From assembly GCA_944359725.1 (NCBI GenBank), contig CALVSY010000006.1, positions 1-64,000 of the forward strand: a stretch of 64,000 nucleotides of DNA. Direction: 5' to 3'. The translations under genes were made by a program, and so were the position numbers. The stretch is from an uncultured Bacilli bacterium. Lineage in GTDB: Bacteria > Bacillota_I > Bacilli_A > RF39 > UBA660. Under the pieces are notes generated by a model that had not been told where the DNA came from, ran no database searches, and saw only the letters and a program-made list of their open reading frames with translations. Below are positions 51,448 to 64,000 of the stretch, in pieces (position 1 is the stretch's first letter; each line of letters opens with the position of its first letter).

Positions 51448-51475
51448 TAAAAGAAACTATAGTTTTATAGTTTCC
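51448..51475 (-). terminator. Terminator after sigE
   Basis: GAAACTATAAAACTATAGTTTC followed by a T-run on the minus strand; overlaps the end of sigE. Confidence 0.75.
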
Positions 51476-52146
51476 TTTATCTTTTTAATTACCTTTTTTT
51501 CTATTCTTGAAATATAACTTTGTGATATACTTAGCTTTTTAGCAAGCTCTTTTTGGGTAATTTCTTTTTCTCCAAAAAGGCCGTATCTTAATTTCATGAT
51601 TTCTCTATCTCTTTTTGGAAGCTTTTCAATTTCTTTTAACAAAGTATTTTTAAGATCGTTATTTTCTAGTTCCTTAGTTACTAAGTCAGGATCAGTACCT
51701 AGTATGTCTTCTAAGTGAAGTTCATTTCCTTCCGCATCAAAAGAAAGTGATTCTTCTAGTGATACATCAGCGTTTCTTTTTTTATTTTTTCTTAAATACA
51801 TTAGTATCTCATTATCAATGCATCTGGATGCATAAGTCGCAAGCTTTATGTTTTTATCAATCTTATACGTGTTTATGCCTTTTATAAGTCCAATGGTACC
51901 AATACTTACTAAATCTTCTAAGTCTATTTTGGTGTTTTCGTACTTCTTTGATAAATATACAACCAATCTTAAATTATGTTCAATAAGCTTGTTTTTAGCT
52001 TCCATACTTCCGTTTTCAAACTCTTTTAAGTACTTTAACTCTTCTTCCTTACTTAAAGGCTCTGGAAGCGCATCAGTTGATCCTATAAAAAATATAGTGC
52101 TTACCTTTTTAAATAACTTCTTTAAAAACATCAAAATCTTTTTCAT
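51457..52146 (-). CDS. sigE: Sporulation sigma factor sigma-E (pro-protein)
   Basis: 229 residues. The pro-sequence (about 1-25: MKKILMFLKKLFKKVSTIFF, basic and hydrophobic) tethers the inactive form to the membrane. Region 2 has NLRLVVYLSKKYENTKIDLEDLVSIGTIGLIKGI, and region 4 has ITQKELAKKLSISQSYISRIEKKVIKKI. Once cleaved by SpoIIGA it directs mother-cell transcription. The gene overlaps spoIIGA by 4 nt as a coupled pair. sigG, usually next, is missing here. Confidence 0.93.
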   Translation of the reverse strand: MKKILMFLKKLFKKVSTIFFIGSTDALPEPLSKEEELKYLKEFENGSMEAKNKLIEHNLRLVVYLSKKYENTKIDLEDLVSIGTIGLIKGINTYKIDKNIKLATYASRCIDNEILMYLRKNKKRNADVSLEESLSFDAEGNELHLEDILGTDPDLVTKELENNDLKNTLLKEIEKLPKRDREIMKLRYGLFGEKEITQKELAKKLSISQSYISRIEKKVIKKIKETIKL

Positions 52147-52937
52147 TTTAAATCCTCCTTAAATAATTTTTCATGCAAGAGTAAGTCTACTCCTTCAATT
52201 CCAAAATTATTGTCAGTTATACCGACCAAACACTCAGTTTCTATATTTTTACCATTTATGATAATTTTCTTTATTTTAAAACATTTAAGTAAACTTTCTT
52301 TGTTTACCGTCTTACAAGGAACCAATATGCACCTTGGATTGTAAGATTCTAAAACACTTTTATTAATAACGATAATAGGTCTTTTTTTATATGGATCATA
52401 CAAATTATTACCAGTGTCTAAAAAACCTGTTAGAAGCTTTGTTTTGCCATTTAAAAAAGTTATTTGGGTCTCATATTTTTTAGCATATTCCTCCTTTAAC
52501 TTTCTTTGCTTTTTTACATATATAAATAAAATTATTGGAGATAAGATAAATACTAAAATTAAGTTTATGCTAAATCCGTTATGATAAAAAATTAAACCCG
52601 TAGTTTTATATGCTAAAGAATCATTAATTAGGTATAAAGCGCCTCCTAAAATGATGCTTACTAAATATAAATAAACAATGTTGTTAATGGTGTATTTTAT
52701 GTCTTTAAAACCAAAGGAAATTAATACCATAAATATAGAAATAACAGCCTTTAACAAAAACAAAGTAAATGAATTAAACGGATAAAACAAAGAAAATATA
52801 CTTAATGCCCCTATTAAGGATGCAAGTAATAACCTTTTTATCTTAGCATTTCTTTTTAGTATTAAAGATACACAAAGCAAAAGGATAAAATCTAAAAAGA
52901 AATTTAAAAATAAAAGTAAGTCTAAGTATATTTTCAT
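52143..52937 (-). CDS. spoIIGA: Pro-sigma-E processing aspartic protease SpoIIGA
   Basis: About 264 residues from the ATG at 52937. Five to six N-terminal helices (about residues 1-145) precede the protease domain with the catalytic motif GFLDTGNNLYDP (D-T-G). The late VLVPC-like CILVPCKTVNKE and NNFGIEGVDLLLHE segments match the family. It cleaves pro-sigma-E after engulfment signalling from the forespore. Together with sigE this is strong evidence of a sporulation programme. Confidence 0.92.
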   Translation of the reverse strand: MKIYLDLLLFLNFFLDFILLLCVSLILKRNAKIKRLLLASLIGALSIFSLFYPFNSFTLFLLKAVISIFMVLISFGFKDIKYTINNIVYLYLVSIILGGALYLINDSLAYKTTGLIFYHNGFSINLILVFILSPIILFIYVKKQRKLKEEYAKKYETQITFLNGKTKLLTGFLDTGNNLYDPYKKRPIIVINKSVLESYNPRCILVPCKTVNKESLLKCFKIKKIIINGKNIETECLVGITDNNFGIEGVDLLLHEKLFKEDLK

Positions 52938-52961
52938 TTTTATCACCATTTTAAGTATAAA

Positions 52962-58570: not shown

Positions 58571-59662
58571 TTAATTTTCTATATGTCTTGATATGTTAAG
58601 GATTATTCCCATCTCTATTAAGGTAATTATTAAGCTACTTCCACCGTAGCTAAAAAATGGTAAAGTTACTCCTGTTACTGGTATTAAGCCTACTACAACC
58701 GCTAAATTTAAAAGTGTTTGAAAAGTAAGCTGAAATATTATTCCAAAACTTAAGAACTTGGCAAAATTATCAGGTGCTTTAATAGATATTTTTACGCTTC
58801 TTAATATTATTATTAAAAATAACGTAGCAACCGAAACTATTCCAATAATTCCAAGCTCTTCTGATATAATAGAAAAAATAAAATCAGTTTGAGGTTCTGG
58901 CAAATAAAAATGTTTTTGAATAGAATTACCAAAGCCCATTCCAAAAAGTCCACCGGGACCTATTGCAAAAAGTGATTGTATCGCTTGAAATCCCGTACCC
59001 AAAGGATCACTCCAAGGATTTAAAAACGACACTATCCTTTCCATTCTATATGGAGCCGCAATAATTAAAAGACAAACGCCAACCAAGCCAAGCATTCCTA
59101 TTTTAATAAAAAACGAAAAGTTAACACCAGATATAAAAAGCATTCCAACAATCGTCATAACAAGGATCGTACCAGTTCCAAAGTCTGGTTGTAACATGAT
59201 AAGAAAAAAAGCGAGCATAACAATGACTAATATTGGAAAAGCACCTTTTTTAACCGAGCGCATATCTTTAGGATTATTATATATGTATTTACTAGTAAAA
59301 ATAATGAGGCCTAGTTTCATGAACTCAGATGGCTGAATACCAAGCCCTCCTATTCCAAACCAACTACGAGAACCATTCCTTACGCTTCCAATACCTGGTA
59401 TTAAAACCAAAATTAAAAGAATAAAACAAATAAGTAAAATTAAATTAGATTTTTTCAAATAATAAGTATAAGGTATTTTACTTACGATAAACATTAAAAT
59501 TATGCCCACCAAAAAGAAGATACTTTGCATTATAACATAATGAAATTCATCATTAAATTTATATTCTGCCCAAATGTTTGATGCTGAGTATATCATTATA
59601 ATTCCATATATACAAATAATAAAAATAGTTATTATAAGCGGGGTGTCTATCTTCTTTTTCAT
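58571..59662 (-). CDS. ftsW: Lipid II polymerase FtsW/SpoVE (SEDS)
   Basis: 363 residues, about ten membrane helices. SEDS signatures are GSVRNGSRSWFGIGGLGIQPSEFMKLGLII, LQPDFGTGTILV (catalytic Asp), NPWSDPLGTGFQAIQSLFAIGPGGLFGMGFGNSIQKHFYLPEPQTDFIFSIISEELG and LPVTGVTLPFFSYGGSS (as PVTGVTLPFFSYGGSS). It forms the glycan polymerase with a class B PBP. Only one is seen here, so it may serve division (FtsW), sporulation (SpoVE) or both. Confidence 0.93.
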   Translation of the reverse strand: MKKKIDTPLIITIFIICIYGIIMIYSASNIWAEYKFNDEFHYVIMQSIFFLVGIILMFIVSKIPYTYYLKKSNLILLICFILLILVLIPGIGSVRNGSRSWFGIGGLGIQPSEFMKLGLIIFTSKYIYNNPKDMRSVKKGAFPILVIVMLAFFLIMLQPDFGTGTILVMTIVGMLFISGVNFSFFIKIGMLGLVGVCLLIIAAPYRMERIVSFLNPWSDPLGTGFQAIQSLFAIGPGGLFGMGFGNSIQKHFYLPEPQTDFIFSIISEELGIIGIVSVATLFLIIILRSVKISIKAPDNFAKFLSFGIIFQLTFQTLLNLAVVVGLIPVTGVTLPFFSYGGSSLIITLIEMGIILNISRHIEN

Positions 59663-59723: not shown

Positions 59724-59752
59724 AAAGAACGCTAATAAAAGCATTCTAAATT
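59724..59752 (-). terminator. Terminator after the Nudix pair
   Basis: AGAATGC TTTTATTA GCGTTCT followed by a T-run on the minus strand. Confidence 0.72.
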
Positions 59753-60155
59753 ATTTTTTTAGATCTATTTTTATTTCTTCTATAATATGTCCTATGTTGC
59801 CTTCACCAGCATACTTATTCATATTAAAAAAATCATCATTAACCGGTACCCACTCTAATTTATTTACCTCTTCAACCAACTCGACATTCTTATTTAATAT
59901 TCCATAATATACTTCTAATTCTTTATCCCATTTAACATATGATATATTCATAAAATGAATTAATTTAACATCACTTTTACCTATATTTGTTTCTTCTTTT
60001 AATTCTCTATAAGCCTCATTTAAGCCATCGTTTTCTTTTTCTATTTTACCACCGACTAGATTGTACATTCCTTTATATGGTTCTTTGGCTCTTTTACACA
60101 TTAAAACTTTATTCTTGTTTTTATCAAAAATAGCAATTACATTCATTTTCTTCAT
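59751..60155 (-). CDS. MutT-like Nudix hydrolase
   Basis: 134 residues. Nudix box GGKIEKENDGLNEAYRELKEETNIG (G-x5-E-x7-REL-x-EE-x-x-x-G; one residue longer than canonical). CKRAKEPYKGMYNLVGG precedes it, as in 8-oxo-dGTP-type MutT proteins. Substrate uncertain. It is inserted between mraY and ftsW, where murD usually lies in Bacilli. Confidence 0.8.
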   Translation of the reverse strand: MKKMNVIAIFDKNKNKVLMCKRAKEPYKGMYNLVGGKIEKENDGLNEAYRELKEETNIGKSDVKLIHFMNISYVKWDKELEVYYGILNKNVELVEEVNKLEWVPVNDDFFNMNKYAGEGNIGHIIEEIKIDLKK

Positions 60156-60159
60156 ATTA

Positions 60160-60705
60160 TTACCTCTTTATACTAGCAGTTAAAACTAAATTATGGTAAT
60201 TATTTTTATACTCATCTAAAACAGGAAGCATCTCATACGCAAGATCTTTAAAACTAGCATGAGTTCTTGCATGATCTATTAGTAAGTCTTCAACGTTATC
60301 TATGTTAACAAAGCAAAGTTTAAATCCATTTTTTCTTTCATAATCACTTATGTTAGTTTCATCTATATTTATGTTTGGAATATTTTTATAAATAAAATAA
60401 ATCATGATGTTTAATCTGTTATTACCAGTTCTAAAATAGTTTTTTTCATAATGTTTAGTTATCATAAAAGGATAATAATCATCTTTTTTTGATTCTATTC
60501 CGGTTTCTTCTTTTACTTCTCTTATTAATCCAAAATAAGCATCTTCACCATCTTTTAAATGTCCCCCGGGAAACTGATAGTCATCATCACAATACGCGAG
60601 TAATATCTCGTTTTGCTCGTTTATCATTATCGCTTTTACTCTTGTTACGACTTCTTTTACATCTTCTTGTTTTAAATTATCTTTATTTATTATTAACTCT
60701 TTCAT
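60160..60705 (-). CDS. Nudix hydrolase, paralogue of 34410-34916
   Basis: About 181 residues from the ATG at 60705. Nudix box GGHLKDGEDAYFGLIREVKEETG is intact. Its MKELIINKDNLKQEDVKEVVTRVKAIMIN start parallels the Nudix protein at 34410-34916, so both belong to one subfamily with an extra N-terminal strand. Substrate unknown. 4 bp from the MutT-like gene. Confidence 0.82.
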   Translation of the reverse strand: MKELIINKDNLKQEDVKEVVTRVKAIMINEQNEILLAYCDDDYQFPGGHLKDGEDAYFGLIREVKEETGIESKKDDYYPFMITKHYEKNYFRTGNNRLNIMIYFIYKNIPNINIDETNISDYERKNGFKLCFVNIDNVEDLLIDHARTHASFKDLAYEMLPVLDEYKNNYHNLVLTASIKR

Positions 60706-60769
60706 AAAATGCCCCTTATCATCTTTATCCATATTACTAAAATAATTAATTTATTTCAAGGCTATAAAC

Positions 60770-61872: not shown

Positions 61873-62739
61873 TTATTTGTGAACCAAAACTTTCGTTCCA
61901 ACTGATACGTTTTCGTATACCGTCTTAGCATCAGCATACTTCATGTTTACACAACCATGAGAACCATTTAAATAATCATCATCGTCAAAACTCTTTCTCC
62001 AAGAAGCATCATGAAGTCCTTGACCCTTATCAAAAGGAAGCCAATAATTTACATATACTCTATAATCAGCACCATTTAAATATCTATCGGTTTGCTTTGC
62101 ATAAATAGGATTACATCCTAACCTGGTGTCATATTTGTTTTTCTTACCAGTTACAACATCCGCGGTTAAATAAAGTTCATCATCAACGTATAAATAAAGA
62201 TTTTGCTTTGATATATCAACCTCAACGAAAGTATCACCTAGTTCTTTTGTGTATTTTTTTGAGATATATCCTTTTTTATCCCCATAAGAAACATAATCCC
62301 AGCTGTCATTTGTTTTAATACGTTTTAACTTTTCAAATTTATTAATTACCGTTATTACTTTAGACTTTGTATTAGGTTTTTCTCTTAGATTTACGTTTGA
62401 TGTAACACATATGTTTCCTTCATCTTCATAAAATGATTTTTCTTTTTCCTCAGTTACTTTTGAAGTGGTTACTTCAGCAGTTTCTTTTTCTTTAGTTGTA
62501 CTTTCGGATGCCTTAGTGGTAGTTGCCACTTTAGTTGTTGTTACTGAAGTTGTAGTTTGCGTTGTTACTTCCTTTTTTGTTTCATTATCATTAGCATTTG
62601 AAGAAGATTCATATTCTGAAACAATACTAGCATCATCAGCACTATTAGATAAAATGCTTTGTCTTGCACATCCACTAATAGAAGCGCCAATGGTAAAACT
62701 TAAAAGTATAGATAATAAACGTTTATTTTTCATATTCAT
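61873..62739 (-). CDS. Lipoprotein L,D-transpeptidase with SH3 domain
   Basis: 288 residues. Signal peptide with lipobox SISGC (Cys24), a Thr/Ser/Lys-rich stalk (about 50-95, TTQTTTSVTTTKVATTT), a bacterial SH3b domain (ICVTSNVNLREKPNTKSKVI, about 108-165), then a YkuD domain ending GSHGCVNM (His261, Cys263). It cross-links peptidoglycan stems 3-3 or attaches proteins. It is unusual to find it inside a dcw cluster, between the PBP and mraY; this suggests L,D-cross-links matter for septal or spore wall. Confidence 0.9.
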   Translation of the reverse strand: MNMKNKRLLSILLSFTIGASISGCARQSILSNSADDASIVSEYESSSNANDNETKKEVTTQTTTSVTTTKVATTTKASESTTKEKETAEVTTSKVTEEKEKSFYEDEGNICVTSNVNLREKPNTKSKVITVINKFEKLKRIKTNDSWDYVSYGDKKGYISKKYTKELGDTFVEVDISKQNLYLYVDDELYLTADVVTGKKNKYDTRLGCNPIYAKQTDRYLNGADYRVYVNYWLPFDKGQGLHDASWRKSFDDDDYLNGSHGCVNMKYADAKTVYENVSVGTKVLVHK

Positions 62740-62795: not shown

Positions 62796-63470
62796 TTAAT
62801 TACCAAGCATCAACCTTACCGTTGAACCTTCTTCTAGTCTTGTTCCTTTTTTTGGTGATTGATCTACTATAACATCTCCACTACCACTATATTCTAAAAC
62901 AAAATTAGATAGAATTTTAGTTGCTTCTTTTGCCGTTTTTCCAACTACGTTTTTTACTGTATAATACTTCTTATCATCCCAATCATACTTCATCTCAGAA
63001 TCACCTTCTCGTCTTTCAATATCAAGTGCTTCTATCGCATCTGTTAGGATTGCTTTTGCAACTGGAGCCGCAACAACACCACCGTACTGAACTACTCTTT
63101 TTGGATTGTTTATCGCAACATAAACAACGATTTTTGGATCATCAGCGGGTAAAAAGCCAATAAATGATAAGATGTAGTTACCAACTAAATATTGTCCGTT
63201 TTCTACTTTTTGTGCCGTACCTGTTTTTCCTCCCACTCTATAACCTTCAATGTATGCGTTTCTACCACTACCATTTGTAACAACTGACTCTAATGCTCTT
63301 CTTACTTCTTTTGAGGTTTTACTCGTTATAACCTTCCGTACCTTTGTTGGAGTGTTTTCTTTTATTACTTGATTTGTTTCGGGATCATTTAAACTTTTTA
63401 CGATGTATGGTTTATAAAGGGTACCACCGTTAATCGCGGCGGATACTGCGGTTATTTGCTGTAAGAGAGT
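62796..63470 (-). pseudogene. 3' fragment of a class B PBP (SpoVD/PbpB type), split by a mobile element
   Basis: The frame is open from a stop at 63471-63473 to 62796. It reads TLLQQITAVSAAINGGTL, then VGGKTGTAQKVENGQ with the third transpeptidase motif KTGT, and ends in one PASTA domain (YTVKNVVGKTAKEATKIL..). The SxxK and SxN motifs and the N-terminal part are missing and must lie beyond the element. Position next to mraY and the single PASTA domain match SpoVD; PbpB of B. subtilis has two. The break is at the LQQITAVSAA region, where recombinase coding sequence joins in another frame. Confidence 0.85.
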
Positions 63471-64000
63471 CTAATAAATGAAACTTTCTACCTAATTTAT
63501 CAGAGAATGTATTTATACTTTCTCCTGTCTTCATATAAATATCTAGTTTTATCTTTTTATTTTCTTCTTTATAAACATAGATTCTGTCAATTAATTCATT
63601 AAAAACATCACCATAACATTTATCATCACTCAAACAATCATCTAATGTTTTTTTTAGTTCATTAATTTTATTTTCTATATAGTTTTGATCTCGCTTGTTA
63701 TTTTGTAATTCATTTAATTTTGTTTGATATGTAGTTATTTCTTTATTAATTAAGTCTACTTGTTTTTTATAGTCTTCTTTAGATAAGTATTCTTCCATAA
63801 CGAGTTCTAGTAGTTTGTCTTTTTTATTATTAAACATTAAAATTTTAGATTCGATATTTTTGATTTCAGATTCATTATTATTTGTTTCTAAATAATTTTT
63901 ACAGTCATTTAATATTTCACCAAAAATATGCTTTCTTCGTTTCAATAATTTATTAAACATATCTTTAAAAACAATATCTAGTTCATACTCAAATACTCTA
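63430..64000 (-). CDS. Large serine recombinase, C-terminal part (runs off window)
   Basis: The frame is open to the window edge, so the visible about 190 residues are the C-terminal portion. It begins RVFEYELDIVFKD (end of the zinc-ribbon/recombinase domain) and continues in a long coiled coil (about 45-135) with ELQNNKRDQNYIENKINELKK, as in large serine integrases. The last residues LLDSLTANNRSIRRD are encoded by DNA that also codes for the PBP in another frame, so the gene crosses the att junction. The resolvase domain lies to the right. Confidence 0.85.
   Translation of the reverse strand, partial: RVFEYELDIVFKDMFNKLLKRRKHIFGEILNDCKNYLETNNNESEIKNIESKILMFNNKKDKLLELVMEEYLSKEDYKKQVDLINKEITTYQTKLNELQNNKRDQNYIENKINELKKTLDDCLSDDKCYGDVFNELIDRIYVYKEENKKIKLDIYMKTGESINTFSDKLGRKFHLLDSLTANNRSIRRD
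63445..63480. other. Attachment junction (att) between element and PBP gene
   Basis: PBP homology (QQITAVSAAINGG) stops at about 63462-63470, with TAG in frame at 63471-63473. Rightward only recombinase sequence is found. The recombinase's last 15 codons overlap the junction. Confidence 0.7.

Follow-up and report, generated by a model that had tools for sequence, protein, structure and literature searches.

Several sporulation genes, namely sigK, spsM, spoVFB and gerE, are known to be split and rebuilt by recombinases, and an element has been described in yabG (PMC5025042, PMC4191935, PMC5595907, PMC10747680). The elements that we describe here are like skin in sigK (B. subtilis, C. difficile) and SP-beta in spsM, in that an element with a serine recombinase splits a mother-cell gene that precise excision restores (PMC5025042, PMC4191935). 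They also resemble gin in gerE of B. cereus ATCC10987 in carrying a serine recombinase, and perhaps in two further traits of gin, its non-prophage nature and its small directionality factor (PMC5595907), and are like yin in yabG of C. botulinum V73 and vfbin in spoVFB of B. weihenstephanensis, which reside in other sporulation genes (PMC10747680). Outside sporulation, the heterocyst elements of nifD and fdxN, sometimes several per locus, are excised in a terminally differentiating cyanobacterial cell, whereby the genes are restored. Lastly, in mycobacteriophages such as BPs (integration-dependent immunity), attP is found inside a coding gene (PMC4557955), and integration therefore changes the C-terminus of the product.

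A spoVD gene in two pieces

The window, i.e. the whole stretch of 64,000 nucleotides that was analysed, represents positions 1-64000 of contig C6 (which extends to 66273) in a genome of 1.21 Mb in 30 contigs, 93% complete with 5.2% contamination. All the genomes used here are metagenome-assembled genomes (MAGs), and everything was computed, without reads, circles or transcripts. The features of interest, including one found on another contig, are the following.

51457..52146, (-): sigE-like sporulation sigma factor gene; SigE is its best NCBIfam model (301.7 bits; cut-off 339)
52143..52949, (-): spoIIGA-like gene; TIGR02854, E = 3.1e-37, 128.5 bits, under the curated cut-off of 209.55
58571..59662, (-): spoVE/ftsW-type gene; TIGR02615 spoVE 440.8 bits, just under 448.8; ftsW model 403.9 bits
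60792..61784, (-): mraY, called from its sequence; intact relatives also have spoVD adjoining mraY
62796..63461, (-): spoVD 3' exon, 221 codons and stop; covers the last part of the transpeptidase domain plus a single PASTA domain
63430..64000, (-): large serine recombinase gene, 3' part; the whole gene, 65091-63430 on C6, codes for 553 aa
63460..63461, (-): attR crossover dinucleotide CA; the same CA is in attL, at C16:27293-27294
C16:26015-27294 (locus L008), other contig of the same genome: spoVD 5' exon, ending at the same CA core

The spoVD piece of the window, KTGT included, is open between the core (63461) and its own stop (62796), and the PBP-frame stop just upstream of it is a TAG (63473-63471). 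The recombinase gene is on the same strand, near the right end of the element, and because it extends 30 bases beyond the core, spoVD DNA supplies its last 10 codons and stop, in a different reading frame. Profile searches detected the PF00239 Resolvase and PF07508 Recombinase domains above their cut-offs (102.8 and 67.7 bits), with the zinc ribbon PF13408 slightly under (22.1 bits; cut-off 25.3). A preliminary description, made from sequence alone, had reported a PBP frame open through KTGT and one PASTA domain up to a stop at 63471, the 3' end of a serine recombinase overlapping PBP codons in another frame, and a cluster carrying spoIIGA and sigE with the PBP gene by mraY. All of this held, albeit with profile matches below the curated cut-offs for the cluster genes. 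We also observed a gene for a secreted SH3/L,D-transpeptidase-like protein between spoVD and mraY (61873-62739); G000, G001 and G003 have one, and the intact locus of G016 has none. Two NUDIX hydrolase-like genes are found between mraY and the spoVE-type gene (59751-60732), where relatives also carry one or two.

A search for transpeptidase domains in the window genome returned six stretches. Positions 162-298 of the profile match the window piece (C6:63045-63473) and positions 2-167 match C16:26780-27298. The 5' piece encodes 430 aa ending in ...VSVTPIHLGV and a stop, and the 3' piece reads on as Q(Q)ITAVSAAINGG...LMLGN. Joining the exons in silico at the TACA common to both element ends yielded one ORF of 635-647 aa, with VTPIQQITAVSAAINGG. 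In the attP predicted from the right and left ends, 14 of 20 positions are symmetric about CA, 13 of them in one run, whereas neighbouring dinucleotides taken as the centre gave only 6. This is the anatomy expected of a large serine recombinase site. As the two exons match, attP has this symmetry and the same junction occurs in ~60 other loci, chance is excluded. The exons, the att sites and the in-frame restoration are thus shown by computation. The preliminary description had called for a missing 5' half with a matching att site, which was found on C16, and had named, within one refuting condition, an intact spoVD elsewhere in addition to a decayed 3' fragment without excision; the window genome has no such second copy.

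The element is inserted after codon 414 of spoVD and is at least 9.1 kb long, its middle being unassembled. Its left end encodes PD-Lambda-4_A, AbiEi/AbiEii and a type IIG restriction enzyme. The ~9 kb that could be read, on either side of the unassembled middle, contain defence and unknown genes with no recognised phage structural genes; by eye, no phage gene was recognisable in the complete 7-kb element of genome G001 either.

The best match of the joined protein among solved structures is 7rcz, a SpoVD entry that we take to be that of C. difficile (420 bits), followed by a PBP1 (262 bits). It has the domain set of SpoVD, namely PBP dimerisation, transpeptidase and PASTA domains. On C3, after mraZ-mraW, another gene encodes an intact class B PBP of 709 aa with 33% identity to the joined SpoVD. 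Given the 7rcz match, the gene neighbourhood, this separate PbpB and a mother-cell-type box before spoVD (see below), the split gene is of the SpoVD type and the division PBP is untouched. The alternative raised in the preliminary description, that of a sole division PBP requiring excision in growing cells, is thereby excluded. The window genome also encodes SpoIVA, and its contig C8 codes for a second sigma factor, of the SigK-like type, which narrowly misses its cut-off (294.9 versus 298.65 bits).

Recurrence at three catalytic-motif codons

The nearest public records are Candidatus Aphodocola excrementigallinarum, Pelethosoma, Scybalousia and Onthousia. We take these names to place the host group, which consists of uncultured gut Bacilli, probably in the GTDB order RF39; Aphodocola is listed as Bacilli incertae sedis in the taxonomy listing. 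Among the 17 genomes of the genus with a match, 10 have spoVD in one piece, the closest being 95% identical, i.e. they carry empty, intact alleles, and 6 have a split gene, with the break at codon ~416 in three and at ~352 in the other three. For the family, we collected 386 genomes of 150 genera, 350 of which have a match at 1e-70. Genomes matching solely through PbpB were set aside before the spoVD tally, and the calls are our own assignment from E-values and fragment ranges. On this basis ~115 of the 386 genomes are split, 216 are intact and 55 lack spoVD.

Including the cases of the genus, 84 of 120 split genomes could be read at both gene ends. The interruption is at codon ~415 (site C) in 26 of them, at codon ~348 (site B) in 29 and at codon ~293 (site A) in 7, and the remaining 22 have different sites at the two ends, i.e. 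two or more elements. The other 36 split genomes could not be read at both ends, and some of these may be assembly breaks. Of the three recurrent codons, site A is in STFK, site B in SCN and site C in VTPIQ. The core is AA at site A, in the active-site motif STFK, and also at site B, in the SxN motif. At site C, it is CA at the same codon in all analysed elements except one, and attP symmetry in the elements with a CA core is 12-17 of 22 positions.

When we considered recombinase loci at least 60% identical to that of the window, 60 of 64 were found to have a spoVD exon in the available flank, and this recombinase family is therefore dedicated to the site-C codon. Two of the four others are cut at a contig edge (L108, L152), one is a tandem copy in G196 (L114) and one is unresolved (L156). 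In nearly every site-C element a gene coding for a 68-aa protein, shorter in the most distant elements, directly precedes the recombinase gene; the rest of the content varies. Family profile searches gave no significant family match for the 68-aa protein. Similar small proteins precede the site-A and site-B recombinases.

Related recombinases that are only 43-46% identical lie directly beside the 3' part of a D-Ala-D-Ala carboxypeptidase gene of DacF-like appearance, which is cut at its SxN motif (L170-L178). Other related recombinases abut a 5' part of a gene apparently coding for an NMT1-like ABC transporter substrate-binding protein (L165, L166, L168, L169); the targets are therefore not all sporulation genes.

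Several elements can share one gene. A single contig of G067 carries exon 1, an element with a type-B recombinase, an exon of 68 codons, an element with a type-C recombinase and the last exon. In G253, recombinases of all three types are found between four exons of 293, 55, 66 and ~220 codons, the last one on another contig. Three in-silico excisions yielded a SpoVD of 634 aa with no stop, and predicted attP symmetry is 16-17 of 22 at each of the three sites. The same series is present in G073, spread over several contigs. As a side observation, we noted a fourth spoVD site at codon ~545 in a gene already split at site C (L138:12020-16960), with a recombinase of 554 aa of a different kind.

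We also saw spoIVA split, in two or three pieces in 23 genomes of the family (e.g. G175:C8, G253:C15, G330:C53, G361:C70 and C7). The breaks are mostly at codon ~122, and also at ~95 and ~408, and G361 apparently has two insertions. The C-terminal spoIVA exon is directly adjoined by a related recombinase in the loci L163, L164 and L167.

At the far end of most site-C elements, an open tail of 36-37 codons (SPWCLINDTLTITRG..SKYTKKYDVEYEY...) continues the frame of the recombinase across attP. In 61 of 65 cases, the recombinase frame reaches the core in one and the same phase. We calculated pN/pS for 13 distinct tails and obtained 0.35 in frame and 1.9 in frame +1, which served as the control, as frame +2 had too few comparable pairs. 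The tail is thus under protein-level selection. After integration, 6-16 residues read from spoVD replace it. Only circles and tandem arrays join the tail to the enzyme, and forms of this kind must therefore have functioned over evolutionary time. Tandem arrays of two stacked site-C elements with an attP-like junction between them were found in G195:C29, G196:C20 and G058:C14 (L179-L184). A search for free circles by the attP pattern gave three matches in the 386 genomes, all of which we read as tandem junctions of two elements, and the same pattern had no match in viral contigs. The G002 MAG contains an occupied and an empty site-B allele, which differ at a single position in the ~109 bases leading up to the core AA; this fits a mixture of strains as well as it does excision.

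Use of the split gene and rival explanations

To evaluate whether the split spoVD is still used, we analysed 66 rows of site-C 3' exons, in which some genomes are counted more than once. All but one run for 210-213 aa to the same stop, and the remaining one leaves its contig. No decay was seen in these rows, contrary to the decayed 3' fragment that formed part of that refuting condition in the preliminary description. As pairwise pN/pS values over distant pairs were saturated, they were dropped and close pairs used instead. We considered close interrupted pairs with about the same divergence in recombinase and host gene, where the insertion may be older than the split of the lineages, and obtained dN/dS values of 0.02-0.07 for the orphan 3' exon. 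With the window genome and Ca. Aphodocola excrementigallinarum as the pair, the value is 0.066, with dS values of 0.41 for the recombinase, 0.36 for the exon and 0.22 for mraY. Median dN/dS is 0.069 for interrupted pairs versus 0.055 for intact pairs.

SpoIVA is kept in 111 of 115 split and 199 of 216 intact genomes, versus 23 of the 55 without spoVD (Fisher tests ignoring kinship among genomes: split versus intact, p = 0.16; split versus spoVD-less, 1e-15). Furthermore, when the 65 bases preceding spoVD were scanned, 42 of 62 windows had a CATAnAnT-type box, with ~4 expected. CATAnAnT is the -10 pattern of mother-cell sigma factors. By eye, CATA stretches are also found before spoIVA. As the split pieces evolve like a working gene, the elements are most likely removed at spore formation, although this excision is inferred.

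The signals that might control excision differ between types. In the subfamilies A1 (CATACACT) and B1 (CATAAAAT or CATACAAT), a mother-cell-type box is found just before the ribosome site of the recombinase operon. Such boxes are present in 7 of 23 automated windows, versus ~0.6 expected, and in one additional A1 case outside the automated window. In the A2 subfamily, the recombinase is 180-340 bases behind the spoVD 5' exon in five genomes, and since it is on the same strand directly behind that exon, it could be co-transcribed with spoVD. Before the site-C recombinase operon we saw no sporulation-type promoter (1.4 expected), and the sigma-E boxes that the preliminary description proposed to look for before the window recombinase were not found. 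Upstream of the site-C and several site-B recombinase operons, a short way ahead of the small gene's ribosome site, we noted a conserved hairpin resembling a terminator (GAACTTA..TAAGTTCTTTTTT). Attenuation is a possibility.

The likely explanation for these data is that, like skin and SP-beta, the elements leave spoVD by excision and so restore it, and that this probably takes place in the mother cell. Excision itself, its timing and the cell type are inferred. The large serine recombinase of the element would recombine attL with attR at the CA core and thereby remove it, probably with the help of the 68-aa protein of the same operon, a putative directionality factor, and spoVD would be restored exactly. 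Excision would take place in the mother cell, with the forespore keeping the element and its defence genes. The mother cell, which dies, is the only cell that needs spoVD, and excision there would therefore cost neither host nor element anything. The interpretation in the preliminary description, developmental excision restoring a SpoVD-type gene, is thus supported, with excision in sporulating cells remaining an inference. That some related recombinases interrupt a gene without a sporulation role speaks against this explanation, as do the absence of a sporulation-type promoter before the site-C operon, the attP-like sites being tandem junctions instead of free circles, and the exchange of recombinases between genera.

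The junction of the window genome spans two contigs of a MAG with some contamination, so that two contig ends might not belong together. Such an assembly or binning artefact can be all but ruled out, as the same architecture is found on single contigs elsewhere (e.g. G001:C12, G201:C3, G037:C3, G067:C4) and the two ends of the window genome yield one palindromic attP and one in-frame gene. We therefore rejected chimeric contigs. Plain inactivation would mean that the insertions abolished sporulation and that the exons are fossils. On its own, the 5' exon has no KTG motif and, we infer, cannot yield an active PBP, and some family members have lost both spoVD and SpoIVA. Nevertheless, with 65 of 66 exon rows undecayed, purifying selection on orphan exons, small middle exons of 55-68 codons still in frame, and SpoIVA retained far more often in split than in spoVD-less genomes, this is a very improbable account. 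A decayed pseudogene was likewise rejected; the lack of decay and the purifying selection on orphan exons are shown by computation.

The strongest rival is fast turnover, in which mobile elements leave and return often without developmental control. In that scenario spoVD is hit because the DNA of its catalytic motifs is conserved and the gene is not needed in growth, and its function is kept by selection during empty periods. The site-C recombinases are 83-93% identical in genera whose SpoVD proteins are only 50-70% identical. The elements therefore move between hosts, and with recombinases exchanged between genera the insertions may be young or cycle quickly. Occupied and empty alleles within one MAG and a site-C operon without a sporulation promoter also favour turnover. 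Nevertheless, pairs with about equal divergence in recombinase and host genes, with dN/dS of 0.05-0.07, suggest long residence, and with a third of the genomes occupied, many by two or three elements, empty periods would be few. The mother-cell-type boxes of A1 and B1 and the position of the A2 recombinases directly behind the spoVD 5' exon also argue against it. We thus consider fast turnover unlikely and favour excision in the mother cell.

A bolder reading is that spoVD, and also spoIVA, behave much like genes with DNA-level introns, with up to three independent elements, each with a recombinase recognising one catalytic-motif codon, all of which would have to be excised in the mother cell for the protein to be made. 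The swap of the recombinase C-terminus on integration would then be a possible built-in direction switch. Taken as a whole, this joint claim could as well be wrong as right.

Comparison with described elements

In the literature searched, where titles and abstracts of the matches were judged, we found no report of a split spoVD or spoIVA. A survey of RF39 predicted sporulation and listed spoVD among reduced or absent genes (PMC10868615), which split genes may help to explain. Developmental rearrangement in spore formers has so far concerned a handful of genes in Bacillus and Clostridium. If our interpretation is true, it would extend throughout a family of gut bacteria that is common but uncultured, affecting the spore-cortex PBP gene and spoIVA, with several elements per gene. 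Defence genes would be parked where vegetative growth is unharmed. The system also offers many recombinases with defined att sites, and selection on orphan exons provides a culture-free test of the use of split genes.

Of the features that define the known split sporulation genes, those shared here are a split sporulation gene, a recombinase near the end of the element, a matching core, in-frame restoration and intact relatives. For a small directionality factor under a sporulation sigma factor the signs are mixed, with the 68-aa gene in front of the recombinase and boxes in A1 and B1 but none at site C, and the release of circles has only the indirect support of the tail across attP. The mechanism is already known in kind. 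As far as we could find, what is new comprises the targets and the lineage, the recurrence at catalytic-motif codons, the presence of several elements in one gene and a recombinase gene that crosses attP. Compared with skin and SP-beta, the target is spoVD, which is hit at three recurrent codons and can hold as many as three elements at once; what was read of the window element contains defence genes and no recognised phage structural genes, and excision is inferred. While gin is one 28.6-kb element with three recombinase genes (PMC5595907), the spoVD elements each have one recombinase gene for one codon, and several can share the gene. The 72-aa putative directionality factor of yin (PMC10747680) is comparable in size to the 68-aa protein of the spoVD elements; nevertheless, yin is described as unique to one strain, whereas the spoVD elements are found in about a third of the family. 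The model of the fdxN recombinase, XisF, matches the window recombinase only weakly (91 bits; cut-off 375), and the heterocyst elements differ in phylum, genes and cell fate; we claim no membership. Lastly, while integration of BPs alters the repressor, in the spoVD elements it is the recombinase itself that is altered, by the exchange of a 36-aa tail.
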